Source: [Bacillus] enclensis | Lineage (GTDB): Bacteria; Bacillota; Bacilli; Bacillales; Bacillaceae_B | Direction: 5' to 3' | DNA length: 64,000 bases | Assembly: GCF_001456935.1 (NCBI RefSeq) | Contig: NZ_KQ758484.1 | Span: forward strand, 62,001-126,000 | In this document: piece by piece, positions 2,145 to 60,645 of the stretch | How the letters are laid out: every line of letters begins with the position of its first letter | Position numbering within the stretch: the first letter of the stretch is position 1 | The notes under the pieces: model-generated | Seen by the model: the letters and a program-made list of their open reading frames with translations, nothing else | The model's database searches: none | What the model was told of the DNA's origin: nothing | Translations under genes and position numbers: made by a program

Positions 2145-2281
2145 AATTGATATGTCAACATGCTATCAAACGCTTTCACATCGGGGGTGGTGGACGCGTG
2201 GCCGAGGTTCGGTCCGGCGGCGGTCGGATGCTGTTTAGCGGGTCGGGCGGTTCAGGGGCCGGGCTTGGCCGGAAGCGGATC

Positions 2282-2328
2282 GGGGGGACAGGTACCTTCA
2301 CCCGCCGTGCCGCGGTTCCTGTCCCCGC
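2282..2328. repeat. Inverted pair of GGTACC hairpin-family repeats
   Basis: GGGGACAGGTACC at 2284-2296 faces GGTTCCTGTCCCC at 2314-2326; the two arms are complementary at 12 of 13 positions with a 17-nt loop. This is the arrangement called a REPIN or BIME in other bacteria. It sits in an unusually GC-rich stretch (about 2165-2400) that has no supported gene. The core is shared with at least nine other sites in this window. Confidence 0.75.
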
Positions 2329-2564: not shown

Positions 2565-2672
2565 TATTATCAAAAACGATGGTTTTATTATCAAAAATCC
2601 AAATATATTATCAAACCGAAACGGCCCATTTATTATCAAAAATAAGATTTTATTATCAAATCGAAAAATCTG
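2565..2672. repeat. Phased short-repeat array A1 (TATTATC type)
   Basis: Five copies of TATTATCAAA start at 2565, 2586, 2606, 2631 and 2651 (steps 21, 20, 25, 20). The bases between the cores are not conserved. It lies between the yitT terminator (2855-2892) and the efeM promoter. A degenerate hairpin-family repeat follows, with its CGTACC core 80 nt after the last unit. No gene is supported in 2161-2925. Confidence 0.8.
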
Positions 2673-2682
2673 CCCATAATAT

Positions 2683-2750
2683 GGTCACGGGACCTGTCCT
2701 CCGGCTCACTCCACCCATGATATGGGCCACCGTACCTGTCCCCCCGGCTT
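2683..2750. repeat. Two degenerate GGTACC hairpin-family repeats in direct orientation
   Basis: Copies at 2683-2707 (core GGGACCTGTCC) and 2724-2750 (core CGTACCTGTCCCC) resemble the family core GGTACCTGTCCCC with decayed flanking stems. They directly follow array A1. Confidence 0.6.
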
Positions 2751-2854
2751 AACCCCATCCAACCGGACACCCTTGCCTTCAGCTAACGGCGGCTACAACG
2801 ACCTTAACCGTTCGGGAATTGAACCCTAAAGCGGGTGCACATGCCGGGCACACC

Positions 2855-7825: not shown

Positions 7826-7930
7826 ATGTCCTCGAAAGTAAAACTTGTATACTTCATTGATGCCAATGAAGTCAGAGACCTAATAAATATGAAGTTCCAA
7901 ATAGATCCCAATGATCTGGCCGGAAATTAA
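7826..7930 (+). CDS. Candidate 34-residue microprotein
   Basis: A short ORF, ATG at 7826, with AAGGGGGATG upstream at suitable spacing and a strong intrinsic terminator 28 nt after its stop. The product starts MSSKVKLVYFIDANEVRD and ends DPNDLAGN; it is mixed charged with no transmembrane segment. It follows the PaiB gene by 53 nt and may share its transcript. I do not recognise it. Support is the ribosome site and terminator only. Confidence 0.45.
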   Translation: MSSKVKLVYFIDANEVRDLINMKFQIDPNDLAGN

Positions 7931-7958
7931 TCGAAATGATTTAAAAAATATTTCAATA

Positions 7959-8000
7959 GGGGCATGGCCATAATTGCGAATCATGGCCATGCCCCCTTGT
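7959..8000 (+). terminator. Strong intrinsic terminator after PaiB and microprotein
   Basis: GGGGCATGGCCAT (7959-7971) and ATGGCCATGCCCC (7983-7995) form a perfect 13-bp stem followed by CTTGTTTTC. Confidence 0.88.
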
Positions 8001-8124
8001 TTTCAAAGAAAAGTGAGTCAAAATGACTTATTTTTAAAAAATTCTCTGCAGTGTTTTGTAGAAATCCAGTTTTCAACCGGATTCCGGCCCGCTATTTCAG
8101 TAGAGAGAAGGATCAGGCATCAAA

Positions 8125-8250
8125 TATGATCCTAAATCTGATTTTATGAGCCCAATTGGAAATATATGATCCTAATCCCGATTTTATGAGCCTAATTCAG
8201 ATTATATGATCCTAATTCAAATTATATGATCTTACAAGAATCATTCTAAA
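8125..8250. repeat. Phased short-repeat array A2 (TATGATCC type)
   Basis: Six units start at 8125, 8145, 8165, 8185, 8205 and 8225, every step exactly 20 nt. The cores are TATGATC or TATGAGC; bases between cores vary. The last unit reads TATGATCTTA and is followed by GAATCATTCTAAACT, a tail shared with array A3. The hairpin repeat core GGTACC at 8306 is 81 nt after the last unit. Lies between the 7959 terminator and the 3' end of the 8328 gene. Confidence 0.85.
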
Positions 8251-8298
8251 CTAGAATCCTGAATATTCTCCTCTCCATTCCAAAGATCACACAAAAAT

Positions 8299-8329
8299 GA
8301 GCCGCGGTACCTGTCCCCCTGACCCGCTC
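8299..8329. repeat. GGTACC hairpin-family repeat overlapping a stop codon
   Basis: GAGCCGCGGTACCTG (8299-8313) continues to TGACCCGCTC (8320-8329). Ends GAGC and GCTC can pair. It overlaps the stop codon of the 8328 gene, and on the minus strand it is followed by A and five T, so it can act as that gene's terminator. Confidence 0.75.
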
Positions 8330-9362
8330 AAGGCAGCAATACAATCTTCCCCAGCTTCCCTTTTTCCTTAAAATACACCTGTGCTTCTTTCGCTTGTTCC
8401 AATGGAAAGGTTTTATCGATGACAGGCACTAGTTTTCCTTCAGAAATGGCTCCCAGCATCTCTTTGAACTCTGCCCTAGTCCCCAGCACCGAACCGTACA
8501 TGGTGATGTGTTTTAAATACAGTGTCCGAAAATCCAGATTCGTCTGCTGGCCCCCGGCAGAGCCTGATATACAAAACTTCCCGCCTTTTTTCAAAACTTG
8601 AAGAGACGTGTCGAATAAAGCATCCCCCACGACATCCAGCACGGAGTCGACCGGACCCCCGTTCACATTAAGAATGTCTTCTGCCAGGTGTTCGGAGTGA
8701 TAGGATACGACATGGGTTGCGCCTAATTCCTTCAGCTTTTCTTCCCCGGCCAAGTCACCAATGACCGCAAAGACCTTGGCTCCACACACCTTTGACGCAA
8801 TCTGCACATTCAACGAGCCCACCCCGCCGTTCGCCCCGGTGACCACCACCGTTTCTCCGGCTTGAACTTGAATCTGGTTCACCATATGCCACGCTGTCAG
8901 CCCGCTCACCGAAAAAACGGCGCTTTCCTGATAGCCTGGAAGAGGCATATCAAAGCAGAGTTCAGCCGGCCACACGACATATTCAGCATACCCGCCGTCA
9001 TACTCAGATCCGATGAACGACATATCCTCCGAAATATGTTCCAATCCACTTTCCCCGCTCGATGTAAAAGGAAAAAGCACCACATCCCTGCCCGCCATCG
9101 ATTGGGGGACAGCACTTCCAACCTTCACAACCTGCCCCGTAATATCCGAGCCGGGAATCCGCGGGAATTGTACACCTTCCGGCCGCCATCCCGATTTTGT
9201 GCCGCTCCCGTAAGCCCCTTCCCTCATCCAGATTTCTGTATTATTGATCGCGCAGGCCTTCACTTTCACAAGTACTTCATTTGCTTTAGGTTCCGGGACC
9301 GGGATATCCACCAATTCCAGCTTATCGACATCCCCATATCCAGTTACTCGCACCGCTTTCAT
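8328..9362 (-). CDS. Medium-chain dehydrogenase/reductase family oxidoreductase
   Basis: NAD(P)-dependent oxidoreductase of the zinc-type alcohol dehydrogenase/quinone oxidoreductase superfamily. The GroES-like domain covers residues 1-130 (MKAVRVTGYG, then GSDITGQVVKVG) and the Rossmann domain follows with GANGGVGSLN near residue 150. The CxxC structural-zinc loop of true zinc alcohol dehydrogenases is not seen. I start it at MKAVRV, which has AAGGATG upstream; a longer open frame to 9461 is not plausible N-terminal sequence. A hairpin-family repeat overlaps the stop codon. Confidence 0.82.
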   Translation of the reverse strand: MKAVRVTGYGDVDKLELVDIPVPEPKANEVLVKVKACAINNTEIWMREGAYGSGTKSGWRPEGVQFPRIPGSDITGQVVKVGSAVPQSMAGRDVVLFPFTSSGESGLEHISEDMSFIGSEYDGGYAEYVVWPAELCFDMPLPGYQESAVFSVSGLTAWHMVNQIQVQAGETVVVTGANGGVGSLNVQIASKVCGAKVFAVIGDLAGEEKLKELGATHVVSYHSEHLAEDILNVNGGPVDSVLDVVGDALFDTSLQVLKKGGKFCISGSAGGQQTNLDFRTLYLKHITMYGSVLGTRAEFKEMLGAISEGKLVPVIDKTFPLEQAKEAQVYFKEKGKLGKIVLLP

Positions 9363-18018: not shown

Positions 18019-18132
18019 AGGAAAAATTTAACATAATTATATATCGGAATCAAGTATATATTTTTATTAAGTTTATTCGCCGAACTACTCAAAAAAAACC
18101 GCCCCGGCAGAATACCGAAGCGGATCAAAAAA

Positions 18133-18159
18133 GAGCCGCGGTACCTGTCCCCGCGACCC
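18133..18159. repeat. GGTACC hairpin-family repeat acting as terminator
   Basis: GAGCCGCGGTACC (18133-18145) through CGCGACCC (18152-18159). On the minus strand GGGTCGCGG pairs with CCGCGGCTC (two G-T pairs) and six T follow, which makes an intrinsic terminator 10 nt after the broken 18169 gene. Confidence 0.75.
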
Positions 18160-18168
18160 ACAATCTAT

Positions 18169-21189: not shown

Positions 21190-21231
21190 GAGCAGGACCA
21201 TGCTGACGAAGCTTGGTCCTGCTCGTTTTTA
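21190..21231 (+). terminator. Intrinsic terminator after the MFS gene
   Basis: GAGCAGGACCA and TGGTCCTGCTC form a perfect 11-bp stem followed by GTTTTTATT. Confidence 0.88.
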
Positions 21232-21351
21232 TTAGAAAATCCACTTATTTCAGCTTCGTTTCAGAAGGTTTTTTCAAATTTTGTGCAAAAACCCTTCAAA
21301 AGCCACAATCTCCCCTTTAATTTCATCCAATGAAACCTTCCAGACAAGATA

Positions 21352-21480
21352 TATGATCCATTTCAGAGATTTATGATCCTAACTAGAAATATATGATCCT
21401 CATTCCAATTTTATGATCCTATTTTTAAATATACGATCCTAAATCGAAATATATGATCTTATGAGAATCATTCTAAACTG
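21352..21480. repeat. Phased short-repeat array A3 (TATGATCC type)
   Basis: Six units start at 21352, 21372, 21392, 21412, 21432 and 21452, every step exactly 20 nt. The last reads TATGATCTTA and is followed by GAATCATTCTAAACT, the same tail as array A2. Inter-core bases differ from A2. The hairpin core GGTACC at 21528 is 76 nt after the last unit. It lies beyond the MFS terminator. Confidence 0.85.
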
Positions 21481-21520
21481 GCTGGCCGAATCCTTCCTCC
21501 ATCAAAAATCAGACGAAGAT

Positions 21521-21551
21521 GATCCGCGGTACCTGTCCCCCCTGCAACCCC
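21521..21551. repeat. GGTACC hairpin-family repeat next to array A3
   Basis: GATCCGCGGTACCTGTCCCC with a decayed right stem end. It lies about 70 nt before the MBL hydrolase start, in the position that corresponds to the repeat beside array A2. Confidence 0.7.
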
Positions 21552-21620
21552 AAGCAGGAATTCACCATCCTCATGTTAAATACTAATAAATACCAATCCG
21601 ACGAAAAAGAGGGATCCATC

Positions 21621-27876: not shown

Positions 27877-27929
27877 ACCAAACACACCCCAGCCTCAAAT
27901 AAAAGTTACCCATATCTTACCACGGGAAT

Positions 27930-27956
27930 GGGTCGGGGGGACAGGTACCGTGACCC
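27930..27956. repeat. GGTACC hairpin-family repeat with GGGTC/GACCC stem
   Basis: GGGTCGGGGGGACAGGTACC (27930-27949), then GTGACCC (27950-27956). The outer GGGTC and GACCC are complementary. It is inverted relative to the copies at 8299 and 21521 and lies 82 nt from the nearest unit of array A4. Confidence 0.75.
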
Positions 27957-28028
27957 GGTTTGAGACGGGGCCGGGTTTGGCGGACCGGGGAATCCAGACG
28001 GGTTTTAATTAGAATTTTTCTAAGCTGC

Positions 28029-28140
28029 TCATAAACTTGGAATGCGGCCTGTATTTTTGAAATGTGGCCCGTAAATCTGGAATCTGGCTCGTATTTTTAA
28101 AACAGTGTCCCATAAACCTGAATAGTTGCCTGCATTTATA
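28029..28140. repeat. Phased short-repeat array A4 (inverted, TTTATGAGCC-related)
   Basis: Six units with period exactly 20 nt (anchors 28031, 28051, 28071, 28091, 28111, 28131). Two unit forms alternate: CATAAAC/CGTAAAT and GTATTTTT. Read on the minus strand the cores become TTTATGAGC, AATACAGGCC and TTTACGGGCC, close to the TATGAGCC form of array A2, and the unit nearest the hairpin continues to ATTCTAA as A2 and A3 do. The stretch 28141-28254 shows nothing further. Confidence 0.75.
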
Positions 28141-31503: not shown

Positions 31504-32448
31504 ATGAAAAAGATCATTTTGTTTGCCGATCCCGGCATCGATGATTCAGTTGCCATCATGTATGCCCTGCTCAATCCTGAAATCAAAGTGCTAGCCATCG
31601 TTTCAAGCTACGGCAATGTCACCAAGGAGCAGGCTACGGACAATATCGCCTACTTATTGAAGCTCGCCGGAAGGGAAGATGTCCCCATCATCGGCGGCAC
31701 CAACGCCCCGTCAACAGGAAAACCGCCGACATACTATCCGGAAATCCACGGCAAAGAAGGACTCGGCCCCATCCGTCCGCCCGAAGACCTTCAAGCAGAA
31801 CTGACCAATTTCTCAGAACTGTACACGATCATCAAAAATAACCCTGGCTTGACAATTGTTGATGTCGGCAGGAATACGTCACTTGCTGCCCTCTTCCTTT
31901 TAGGTGAAAATCTGATCAAAGATGTCAGCGAATTTTATATCATGGGAGGCGCTTTTTTAGTACCTGGGAATGTGACTCCTTTGGCTGAGGCCAATTTCTA
32001 CGGTGATCCGACCGCTTCAAACCTGGTCATGCAGAACTTCGACAACCTCTACATTGCACCCCTTAACATCACAAACAAAGCAATCATCACGATGGAACAC
32101 GTAAATACGATACTCGACATGACCGAGCACCCGCTCGTCCAGATCCTCGACGATGTCATGGAATACTATATTGAAGCGTACAAAAAACTTATCCCGGGTA
32201 TCGGAGGCGCTCCCCTTCACGACGCCGTCACCCTCTCCCTCATGGTCAACCCTTCAATGGGCAAAACCATCCGCAGGGAAGTCGAAGTCTTCACCGGAGT
32301 CAGCGGAATGGGCACCTCCAGCGCCGACTTCAGAGTCAGCTCCAAAAACGCCGAAAAAAACATCAACATCTTCCTCGAACTCGACTACGAAGCCTTCCTC
32401 GAAGACTTCATCGAAGTCATGAGCGGGTCAGGGGGACAGGTACCTTGA
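31504..32448 (+). CDS. Inosine/uridine-preferring nucleoside hydrolase family protein
   Basis: 314-residue nucleoside hydrolase that cleaves ribosides to base and ribose. The calcium-binding motif is DPGIDDS near residue 9 (one N-terminal Asp of DTDPGxDD is Ala-Asp here), with VDVGRNTSLAALF and EANFYGDPTAS further on and APLHDAVTLS near 240. GCGAGGAGA precedes the ATG. The last residues, GSGGQVP, are encoded by an inserted hairpin-family repeat (32425-32448), so the native C-terminus has been replaced. Single gene. Confidence 0.88.
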   Translation: MKKIILFADPGIDDSVAIMYALLNPEIKVLAIVSSYGNVTKEQATDNIAYLLKLAGREDVPIIGGTNAPSTGKPPTYYPEIHGKEGLGPIRPPEDLQAELTNFSELYTIIKNNPGLTIVDVGRNTSLAALFLLGENLIKDVSEFYIMGGAFLVPGNVTPLAEANFYGDPTASNLVMQNFDNLYIAPLNITNKAIITMEHVNTILDMTEHPLVQILDDVMEYYIEAYKKLIPGIGGAPLHDAVTLSLMVNPSMGKTIRREVEVFTGVSGMGTSSADFRVSSKNAEKNINIFLELDYEAFLEDFIEVMSGSGGQVP

Positions 32449-32473
32449 GCCGAGGGGACAGGTACCGCGGCTC
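32425..32473. repeat. Two GGTACC hairpin-family repeats, first inside a coding end
   Basis: Copy 1 (32425-32451) starts GGGTCAGGGGGACAGGTACC and supplies the last codons and stop of the nucleoside hydrolase. Copy 2 (32447-32473) starts GAGCC, has core GGGGACAGGTACC and ends GGCTC, so its outer stem is GAGCC/GGCTC rather than GGGTC/GACCC. Confidence 0.8.
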
Positions 32474-32654
32474 ATATGCAAGCACGGCGGCCAGCGAAGA
32501 CAGTTTGTGCCCCATCTATCGATTAGTGTCTCAATGGGTGACAGATCCTACTGACATTAAAAATAGCCCTTCCTTCAACACAATGAATTTCCACTATCAT
32601 GAGGGTTGGGCATTTCATGTTGCGACTGGGGACTTTACGCCTTTATCAAAATAA
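32445..32654 (+). pseudogene. ORF fragment of doubtful status
   Basis: A 69-codon frame whose first codons are hairpin-repeat sequence, with no ribosome site. From about residue 20 the sequence (YRLVSQWVTDPTDI and later FHYHEGWAFHVATGDF) looks like natural protein and may be the remnant C-terminus of a lost gene. No family recognised. Confidence 0.25.
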
Positions 32655-40086: not shown

Positions 40087-40143
40087 AATTGTACACAATA
40101 ATTTATATTTTGTATACAAAAATATTTAAAATGTATACAAAAT
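40087..40143. promoter_or_regulatory. Three GntR-type operators at 21-bp spacing
   Basis: Palindromes TTGTACACAA, TTGTATACAA and ATGTATACAA have centres GTACAC 40091, GTATAC 40112 and GTATAC 40133, each 21 bp apart. They lie between the operon start and the divergent GntR gene and are the likely sites of that regulator. Confidence 0.75.
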
Positions 40144-40265
40144 TATTTTCCGTTAGAACTTTCAAATAGTACCAACTCGTTCTATACTTTTAGGAAGGGC
40201 ATTATTTTTAACAGCCAAATACGTAAAAAAGACAAACAGAAAGTCTTTCATTGGAGTCGATTTAG

Positions 40266-43108: not shown

Positions 43109-43210
43109 TATTATCGATTTTTTCAAATTTATTATCGAGATTGAAAAATATTTTATCGAAAATGGTAATTTTATTATCGAAAGGCTGTAAGCCACTGCTC
43201 TTTTTTATCA
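43109..43210. repeat. Phased short-repeat array A5 (TATTATCGA type)
   Basis: Units at 43109, 43130, 43151 and 43172, every step exactly 21 nt, then a fifth variant TTTTATCA at 43203 (step 31). The same 21-21-21-31 layout occurs in array A6. It lies beyond the terminator of the 43364 gene. In the rest of 42778-43327 I see only a GC-rich inverted repeat near 42888-42915 and a lone TATTATCAAA at 43263. Confidence 0.82.
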
Positions 43211-46674: not shown

Positions 46675-46705
46675 ACGGGTCAAGGTACCTGTCCCCCCGA
46701 CCCGT
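46675..46705. repeat. GGTACC hairpin-family repeat serving as terminator
   Basis: ACGGGTCAAGGTACC (46675-46689) through GACCCGT (46699-46705); outer ACGGGTC/GACCCGT pair perfectly. On the minus strand T7 follows, directly after the stop codon of the 46706 gene, so this repeat has become its intrinsic terminator. Confidence 0.82.
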
Positions 46706-48873: not shown

Positions 48874-51225
<2,352 letters not shown>

Positions 51226-51451: not shown

Positions 51452-51570
51452 TATTATCGATTTCCCGAAATTTATTATCGATATCTTTAAATTTATTATC
51501 GAAAATCGCAATCCTATTATCGAAATTGCCGGAACCGCTTTGAACTATTATCAAATCCTAAGCTTTATCA
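51452..51570. repeat. Phased short-repeat array A6 (TATTATCGA type)
   Basis: Units at 51452, 51473, 51494 and 51515, every step exactly 21 nt, then a fifth TATTATCAAA at 51546 (step 31), the same layout as array A5. It lies between the katG terminator and the 3' end of the HxlR gene. The rest of 51289-51630 shows nothing else I can support. Confidence 0.82.
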
Positions 51571-56725: not shown

Positions 56726-56873
56726 TGTGTAAACACTCCTTGTGCGCTTTTTAGAAAATTGACGCATTCACTCTTTCCTTACTATAACAAAAAAATCAGG
56801 CGGTATGAAAATGGGACCGCCTGATTTTCCCGGGTGACGCGCTTTATTTATGCTTACTGCTTGAATGGCAGCC

Positions 56874-56900
56874 GGGCCGCGGTACCTGTCCCCCCGGCCC
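56874..56900. repeat. GGTACC hairpin-family repeat with GGGCC/GGCCC stem
   Basis: GGGCCGCGGTACCTGTCCCC (56874-56893), then CCGGCCC (56894-56900). The outer stem is GGGCC/GGCCC, a compensatory variant of GGGTC/GACCC. It lies 2 nt after the stop of the 56903 gene; no T-run follows. Confidence 0.8.
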
Positions 56901-56902
56901 GC

Positions 56903-60234: not shown

Positions 60235-60546
60235 TTAAAAGTCATAAAACCTTTGCATTAATAAGAAAACGGCATACGTCAATTTGTATGCCATTTCATA
60301 TGTCAATTTAACCTTATGCACCTCAAAACTGAACGGTTTAATCAAAATCAGGAGAGCTTTTTTCAGGATACCGGCTGATTTCATGAAGGGCTTCTCACCC
60401 CCGAACGCCACACGCCTTCTGTATTTGTCCTTTTCAACTGAAAAGTGATGAATATTCAGTAAAAAGGACTCATCCACCGTAAATCCGGCATCTTTGATGT
60501 AATTCGCCTCCTCATAGGGCTTGAATCCACGCTTTACGACATACAT
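60235..60546 (-). pseudogene. ORF of doubtful status, possible gene remnant
   Basis: 103 codons with no ribosome site; its first codon lies inside the first unit of array A7 and its C-terminal third is read through the right inverted repeat (LILIKPFSFEVHKV). The middle (DAGFTVDESFLLNIHHFSVEKDKYRRRVAFGG) looks protein-like. Probably the remnant of a gene disrupted by the flanking elements. Confidence 0.3.
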
Positions 60547-60645
60547 ATTATCAAAACTGGACAGTTTATTATCAAAAATCCAATAATATTATCAAAAACA
60601 GAAATATATTATCAAAAACGGACCTTTTATTATCAAATCATCCAT
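60546..60645. repeat. Phased short-repeat array A7 (TATTATCAAA type)
   Basis: Five units at 60546, 60567, 60587, 60607 and 60628 (steps 21, 20, 20, 21), all with TATTATCAAA cores. It is the closest relative of array A1. It lies before the 3' end of the DUF817 gene and has no hairpin repeat nearby. Confidence 0.82.

Follow-up and report, generated by a model that had tools for sequence, protein, structure and literature searches.

The phased array and the hairpin that lie together at positions 8125 to 8329 of the stretch analyzed belong mostly to two separate repeat families, both located behind gene 3′ ends. This stretch (hereafter the window) comprises 64,000 nt of [Bacillus] enclensis and corresponds to C3:62001-126000 of genome G000 (4.48 Mb, 18 contigs); positions without a contig name refer to the window. 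The arrays usually consist of 4-8 copies of a 6-8 nt core repeated every 20 or 21 nt, with many cores sharing one geometry. In our preferred reading, to which we assign a probability of about 0.45, the two families share the space at gene 3′ ends and the array would be a docking or wrapping site for a protein that we infer.

Four loci had led the initial annotation to propose one element of about 200 nt, composed of array, linker and hairpin. At the first, an array of six TATGATCC/TATGAGCC cores with a 20-nt step (8125..8233, plus strand) is followed directly 3′ of the last unit by the tail palindrome AGAATCATTCT (8237..8247, plus) and then by a REP-like hairpin (8298..8326, plus) with its core GGTACCTGTCCCC at 8306-8318. 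The second locus, homologous to the first, carries six TATGATCC/TACGATCC cores with the same step (21352..21460, plus), the tail palindrome AGAATCATTCT (21464..21474, plus) and a REP-like hairpin (21520..21548, plus; core 21528-21540). As annotated, each array has six 20-nt units ending in TATGATCTTA, each is followed by the tail GAATCATTCTAAACT (8238-8252 and 21465-21479), and the hairpin core GGTACCTGTCCCC, which starts at 8306 and 21528, respectively, lies 81 and 76 nt beyond the start of the last unit. The third locus (27930-28140) keeps the order of array, tail and hairpin on the minus strand, with a degenerate array of TANNRGCC cores (TATGAGC, TACGGGCC, TACAGGCC and others; 28027..28123, last edge set by eye, detected cores at 28045-28093), a tail palindrome variant TTAGAAAAATTCTAA read from the sequence (28009..28023) and a REP-like hairpin (27929..27957; core 27937-27949); its spacing is about 84 nt rather than the 82 nt given before. 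At the fourth, five TATTATC cores follow each other in steps of 21, 20, 25 and 20 nt (2565..2657, plus; first three cores detected), so that one of the four steps is 25 nt. Two hairpin-like elements lie beyond it (2681..2751, plus; cores at 2689 with two mismatches and at 2731 with one), 38 and 80 nt past the start of the last unit; the annotated core at 80 nt is present, whereas the one at 38 nt had been left uncounted.

A BLAST search of positions 8100-8340 against the own genome returned 45 matches. Beyond the self-match, only 21351-21541 aligns from the array over the linker into the hairpin (query 25-220, 78%); the remaining array matches end by query position 161, and the hairpin-only matches begin at 189 or later. 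Judged by this alignment, a single stretch of about 196 nt seems to have been copied to give the loci at 8125 and 21352, and the idea of a unit copied whole fits this pair while failing as a general account. Thirty of the 40 exact hairpin copies were taken for distance measurements. An array lies within 500 nt at ten of them, at distances of 68, 73, 96, 110, 151, 172, 185, 190, 199 and 269 nt, and points towards the hairpin at five and away from it at five; at the other 20, no array was detected within 500 nt. The constant distance that had been read from the four loci is thus not a general rule. Variation of this distance had been put forward as the test of the proposal, and with a range of 68 to 269 nt in two geometries the general composite idea fails it. 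Likewise, 17 of the 25 arrays listed in C3:1-280000 have no hairpin core (≤2 mismatches) inside 400 nt.

Locally, hairpins are genuinely over-represented 60-120 nt 3′ of arrays. In C3:1-280000, a same-strand hairpin lies at this distance at 6 of the 26 arrays (null 0.22, 0/2000), and 9 of the 18 hairpins fall in array-bearing gaps (null 3.57, P 0.003), under a null in which hairpins fall anywhere in intergenic DNA at random and their preference for gene ends is left unmodeled. Four of the six arrays are the loci annotated before, including the 27930 array, which the detector missed and which was added by hand; the two new ones, at C3 49.6 kb and 57.7 kb, are outside the window. This excess and the homology of the 8125 and 21352 loci throughout their length favor a single element moved or duplicated whole, but the own-genome matches and the hairpin-array distances refute it in its general form, and the arrays have sharp edges even where no hairpin accompanies them. 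We therefore regard the single element as very improbable. The distinction of two families follows from the recurrence of array and hairpin apart from each other in the genome, from the likely separate mobilizer and separate placement of the hairpin, and from the arrays' own edges, just outside which information is at background. Array and hairpin should be annotated as two things, whichever reading of the array is true.

Further members of both families occur in the window. Two TATTATCG arrays of four 21-nt units, each with a next core 31 nt on, are found at 43109..43180 (plus; one unit degenerate) and 51452..51523 (plus), and a TATTATCAAA array of five units at 60546..60636 (plus). The hairpin core has 13 matches in the window at ≤2 mismatches, against 0.77 expected. 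A hairpin at 2276..2304 (minus) has no adjacent array unit, the 2565 array being 269 nt away, and array units were not found within 500 nt of the hairpins at 18132..18160 (plus; L014), 32424..32474 (two, minus; L017 and L018), 46676..46704 (plus; L019) and 56873..56901 (plus; L020). The identified genes flanking arrays in the window encode a zinc alcohol dehydrogenase, an MFS protein, a metallo-beta-lactamase fold protein, a response regulator, a DNA alkylation repair protein, a peroxidase and a DUF817 protein. At 7920-8080, upstream of the 8125 array, a terminator-like hairpin is followed by a AGTCAAAATGACT-like palindrome, a combination also present at a second G020 array locus (G020:C33:9588-9700). 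Three TGTATACAAAAT-like units with a 21-nt step at 40087-40144 lie in a promoter-like region and are perhaps an operator rather than an array of this kind.

The genome contains 192 TATNATC pairs spaced by 19-21 nt versus 2 for the reversed pattern, and a core-blind detector requiring at least 4 units of period 20/21 found 20 arrays in 280 kb (one run of N excluded), compared with 0, 1 and 0 in three shuffles. The core word differs between arrays, comprising TATTATC, TATGATCC, ATTGCGCC, TATTTTC and GACGCAAT among others; further cores are TATTATCAAA, TATTATCGA, TATTATCGAC, TATGAGCC, TATGCTCG, TATGCTG, TACAAGCC, TACCAACA, TATTTTCAAA, GGCTGGATTTTC, TACTGTCC, CCCAACTT and TTAATCC, and 36 of the 155 distinct arrays hold fewer than two TATKATC cores. 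Steps of 20 nt (166/353 units) and 21 nt (187/353) often alternate, giving a mean of 20.5. At L117:5530-5679 (minus), four TATTATC units are followed in phase by four TATTTTC units, again at steps of 20 or 21. In TATTATCG arrays of G000, G020 and G023, 21-nt units are followed by a step of 30-31 nt, corresponding to three turns, and then by 20-nt units in 7 of 9 rows, two of these rows being orthologous; the 31-nt step is not found in the other 24 of the 33 TATTATCG arrays, all from other genomes. Very long arrays with strictly alternating G/C-rich linkers were observed in Sporosarcina sp. E16_8 (L115, L132, L150), the L115 array having up to 15 units. From the counts of placement, steps, tail words and TATTATCG steps we left out L082, L084, L089, L100, L101, L128, L135 and L148, which are not named Bacillales; L099, L144 and L149 (duplicate G020:C70) were dropped from these counts and from the alignment below, and L098 from the step count, the placement of 125 arrays and the TATTATCG-step rows.

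The arrays end sharply. In 45 aligned segments of the build 21-20-21-20, a few of which overlap inside long arrays, information extends only from −2 to about +92, consists entirely of direct repeats and is at background level just outside the array; neither terminal inverted repeats, which a MITE would have, nor a conserved target are present in these segments. Short words follow some arrays: AGAATNATTCT occurs in 5/155 tails and 0/155 heads, and TGTCGA after 10/155 arrays and before 0/155. TGTCGA(A) was seen directly 3′ of the last unit despite quite different cores at L258, L265, L253, L257 and at C3 144.6 kb and 175.8 kb. This word was considered as a Spo0A box, but its reverse, TTCGACA, likewise occurs after 7/155 arrays and before 2. 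The −10 consensus is matched by TATTAT and TATGAT and violated by others, TATGAG, TACCAA and TATTTG among them, and −10 hexamers were dismissed. The cores may resemble Fur or PerR half-sites. CRISPR arrays consist of nearly identical repeats of at least about 23 nt with unique spacers, and are ruled out by the 6-8 nt core and the period of 20-21 nt.

Each step of the array spans two helical turns, and base composition alternates besides. A/T power at 10.25 bp is 1.01 for the 119 arrays of TATKATC type and rises to 1.63 for the 36 others, compared with 0.20 in shuffles; 200 permutations of columns within units gave maxima of 0.48 and 0.64, read at period 10.0, the period possible for permuted 20-nt units. 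The 10.25-bp alternation of A/T and G/C is common to arrays with unrelated cores from unrelated genera. Mainly because of this shared layout, bending or wrapping is favored over binding of one ordinary transcription factor. In the 70 nt 3′ of arrays, A/T power is 0.33 versus 0.21, and a second component at 6.8 bp (0.59) is seen in TATKATC arrays and not in the others. No clear static curvature emerged from a wedge model (0.928 versus 0.947), 51% of 123 arrays being more curved than shuffles.

Arrays are placed at the downstream ends of genes, as called with a simple codon model. Six of the 96 TATKATC arrays run into a called ORF; among the remaining 90, 33 lie in convergent, 53 in co-directional (32 against the genes, 21 along them) and 4 in divergent gaps. 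Including other cores and G023 brings the total to 125 arrays, of which 116 border a gene 3′ end and 9 lie in divergent gaps. Since 22 of the 95 gaps longer than 200 nt in C3:1-280000 are divergent, arrays avoid this class (P 4e-6 by gap number, 2e-4 by bases). A terminator is predicted before the array at 88 of the 143 gene ends that face one at 40-700 nt, and within 150 nt at 70 of 160 sampled C3 gene ends. With respect to strand, TATKATC arrays listed in G023:C1:729677-1418188 are all on the minus strand at 730-885 kb and all on the plus strand at 967-1418 kb, and nearly all arrays of G000 C3:1-126000 are on the plus strand. Replication polarity, with a terminus at the strand switch of G023:C1, was rejected: GC skew is negative in all 15 intervals over 720-1020 kb, gene direction shows no lasting switch on this contig, and the arrays listed on G023:C2 are of mixed strand. 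The B. subtilis dif sequence was found at ≤3 mismatches in none of three genomes. At G000:C3:41361-42128, a gene resembling those for small acid-soluble spore proteins, as judged by eye, lies between two opposite arrays; this whole stretch is missing from G020.

The hairpin family behaves differently from the arrays in being palindromic. GGTACCTGTCCCC has 97 copies in the genome at ≤1 mismatch, 61 on the plus and 36 on the minus strand, against 5 for the reversed control; 40 copies are exact. Across 30 exact copies, stem covariation is 0.348 versus 0.201 in shuffles, none of 500 being as high, and 78.6% of stem cells are paired, against a maximum of 42.4% when the arms are slid. Compensated pairs include GGGTC/GACCC, GAGCC/GGCTC and GGGAC/GTCCC, indicating that the stem is preserved by compensatory changes, as it is in REP elements. 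All 18 hairpins of C3:1-280000 lie inside a gap or within 45 nt of one, in keeping with the many intergenic copies of such elements; 13 are oriented so that GGGGACAGGTACC reads along the gene with the nearest 3′ end, and 8 lie at most 50 nt from such an end, one of them overlapping it. At L021, the one transposase locus examined, a Y1_Tnp gene (PF01797, 9.4e-16) has two inverted exact copies at its 5′ end, and no hairpin was found at ≤2 mismatches at its 3′ end. We conclude that the hairpin is a REP-like palindrome, probably mobilized by an IS200-like (RAYT-like) transposase.

Between G000 and its close relative G020, eight arrays could be aligned through both flanks. Substitutions amount to 17/356 in cores and 33/367 in linkers (P 0.03), compared with 220/1756 in the 150-nt flanks (array versus flank, P 3e-5), 74/870 in intergenic DNA beyond them and 271/6082 in coding sequence. 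Arrays thus change at about half the rate of the flanks next to them, although not clearly more slowly than all intergenic DNA, as the value further out is not far from that of arrays with their linkers taken jointly (50/723); one of the eight, at C3 49.6 kb, has diverged as much as the DNA around it. Where units differ, they do so in register: at C3 12.7 kb, 41 nt are missing from G000; G020 is one unit short at 122.5 kb and has only one unit left at 26.1 kb. A further G000 array has two counterparts in G020, each of which shares one of its flanks. At C3 41.4, 105.1 and 26.1 kb, comparison with G020 reveals replaced intergenic DNA or a one-unit remnant and no clean empty site.

Arrays are patchy in Rossellomorea and scattered over the Bacillales. 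The number of core pairs ranges from 0 to 218 among 36 genomes of the genus; with none at all, G002 and G025 still have two arrays of other cores each (100 kb each), one of the two in G002 looking like chance, while a core-blind scan detected no array in 100 kb of G027 or 60 kb of G034. Sharing behind orthologous genes is limited. An array adjoins the gene at 8328 in 2 of 22 close orthologues, those of G000 and G020 only. Behind the peroxidase gene (48997-51225), an array is present at 7 of the 30 loci of orthologues, and the cores are of five kinds (G000/G020, G032, G029, G011 and G016/G006). Core switching in one ancestral array behind the peroxidase gene was considered and rejected, because orientation and distance differ between these loci and descent from a single array is not established. 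Across the order, a three-core pattern occurs in 9 of 299 genomes and 5 of 116 genera, with none in the control. Among the matches listed (80 of 109 stretches were used from the named scan), the genera besides Rossellomorea are Planococcus, Planomicrobium, Sporosarcina, Alkalihalobacterium, Metabacillus, Fictibacillus and Piscibacillus; the few other listed matches appear to be low-complexity chance. The core-blind detector found no array in a small sample of 299 kb from 20 genomes of other families. Near-identical 21-nt units, TATTATC(G/A)ACTTT followed by a GGCACATA-like sequence, were noticed in different families of the order (G136, on several contigs, L088 and L118 versus L081, L121 and other Rossellomorea loci), perhaps through horizontal spread or a shared reader. 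A phage or plasmid origin was considered and rejected: no match was obtained for 7900-8600 in a plasmid collection or for 21190-21620 in a phage collection; the three-core pattern matches one viral contig, in AT-rich low-complexity DNA.

What the arrays are can be read in several ways. As dispersed repeats, selfish or neutral and about 95-160 bp long, that some copying or recombination process spreads, they would be phased because they are copied whole and would persist at gene ends because they are harmless there. The very uneven copy number within the genus fits such an origin, as do subfamilies of fixed build with position-specific linkers, the in-register unit differences, the one array that matches two, and local clusters of one core such as three TGCGCG arrays within 18 kb. 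We consider it possible yet rather unlikely, since it leaves unexplained the identical 10.25-bp layout under unrelated cores in unrelated genera and the faster change of linkers than of cores, and the arrays have neither terminal inverted repeats nor a conserved target. Action as RNA, in mRNA 3′ ends or small transcripts, would agree with the position behind genes; it is very improbable given that helical-turn phasing and the 31-nt step are features of DNA, that a terminator is frequently predicted before the array and that the window contains no Rfam family.

Strong gyrase sites like E. coli BIME-2, at which phased bendable DNA would wrap on gyrase behind transcribed genes, have more in common with the arrays. 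According to two sources (PMC6379681 and the preprint PMC12393610), the E. coli gyrase motif shows phased 10-bp variation of G/C over 130 bp, gyrase gathers downstream of transcribed units and BIME-2 are strong sites. The arrays are alike in place and in their 10.25-bp phase. However, gyrase needs no repeated core, the arrays are direct repeats without two-fold symmetry, and the downstream attraction is, according to PMC6379681, not encoded in motif scores. Gyrase sites are on balance an improbable identity for the arrays.

We favor, instead, a helix-phased docking or wrapping site. Each core, recurring every two turns, would be read on one face of the DNA, and an oligomeric DNA-binding protein would dock once per core and bend or wrap about 100 bp, the bendability being built into the sequence. 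Sitting past terminators and in the gaps between convergent genes, at points where opposing transcription lets supercoils accumulate or where read-through should end, such a complex may influence DNA topology, the folding of the chromosome or transcriptional read-through and not a promoter. The protein, the wrapping and the role are each conjectural. It is odd for a single protein that one core prevails within an array and another in the next. Also counting against docking are the restriction of the 31-nt step to 7 of 9 rows in three genomes, the lack of clear static curvature, the mostly unshared positions behind orthologous genes, the similar divergence of far intergenic DNA, the fast-changing array at C3 49.6 kb and the 6.8-bp component of TATKATC arrays.

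Protein-bound arrays would mark, from sequence alone, the sites of a chromosome-shaping or transcription-insulating factor in common soil and marine bacteria, and would provide a natural series of sites with varied core and fixed geometry in which base reading and DNA bending could be separated. If selfish, they would be an unusual repeat whose spread preserves helical phase. Tentatively, helix-phased arrays with polymorphic cores may be a bacterial chromosomal element not previously described as a class, its geometry kept across Bacillales although the core word varies between arrays and may switch in blocks, in phase, inside one array (L117), a suggestion that we consider possible with less than even odds. 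It would imply either related proteins whose DNA-reading modules are interchangeable on a common scaffold or a factor that responds to repetition at a fixed phase instead of a particular sequence. No description of such arrays was found in the open-access PMC literature searched, which need not cover all print.

Several known systems invite comparison. Iterons of plasmid origins and parC-type centromeres are short direct repeats spaced by about two helical turns that are regarded as docking sites for oligomers. The arrays likewise have several short direct repeats about two turns apart, but they occur in dozens of chromosomal copies with differing cores, and the six flanking genes identified next to the window arrays include no replication or partition gene such as one for Rep or ParR. 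MITEs and BOX elements are short, non-coding and dispersed and have subfamilies, as do the arrays, which differ in the absence of terminal inverted repeats, in helical phasing and in a variable core; no target duplication was seen at the sites compared with G020. With the REP/RAYT systems (GTAG and CGTC REPs), as portrayed in PMC3733652, the hairpin shares short length, high copy number, intergenic position often behind genes, a covarying stem and a nearby Y1_Tnp gene. It differs in that copies were seen only at the 5′ end of the one transposase gene examined and that GTAG, the tetranucleotide at one stem end of the GTAG REP superfamily, is absent from the 30-copy alignment; the arrays differ in not being palindromic. 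BIME-2, which are strong gyrase sites (PMC6379681), are clusters of palindromes, whereas in the arrays, which are candidates for gyrase binding, a short core recurs in direct orientation. Both are intergenic, lie behind transcribed units and carry a phased composition of about 10 bp. The phasing of the E. coli gyrase motif and the gathering of gyrase behind transcribed units are the closest parallel to the arrays that we found in print.
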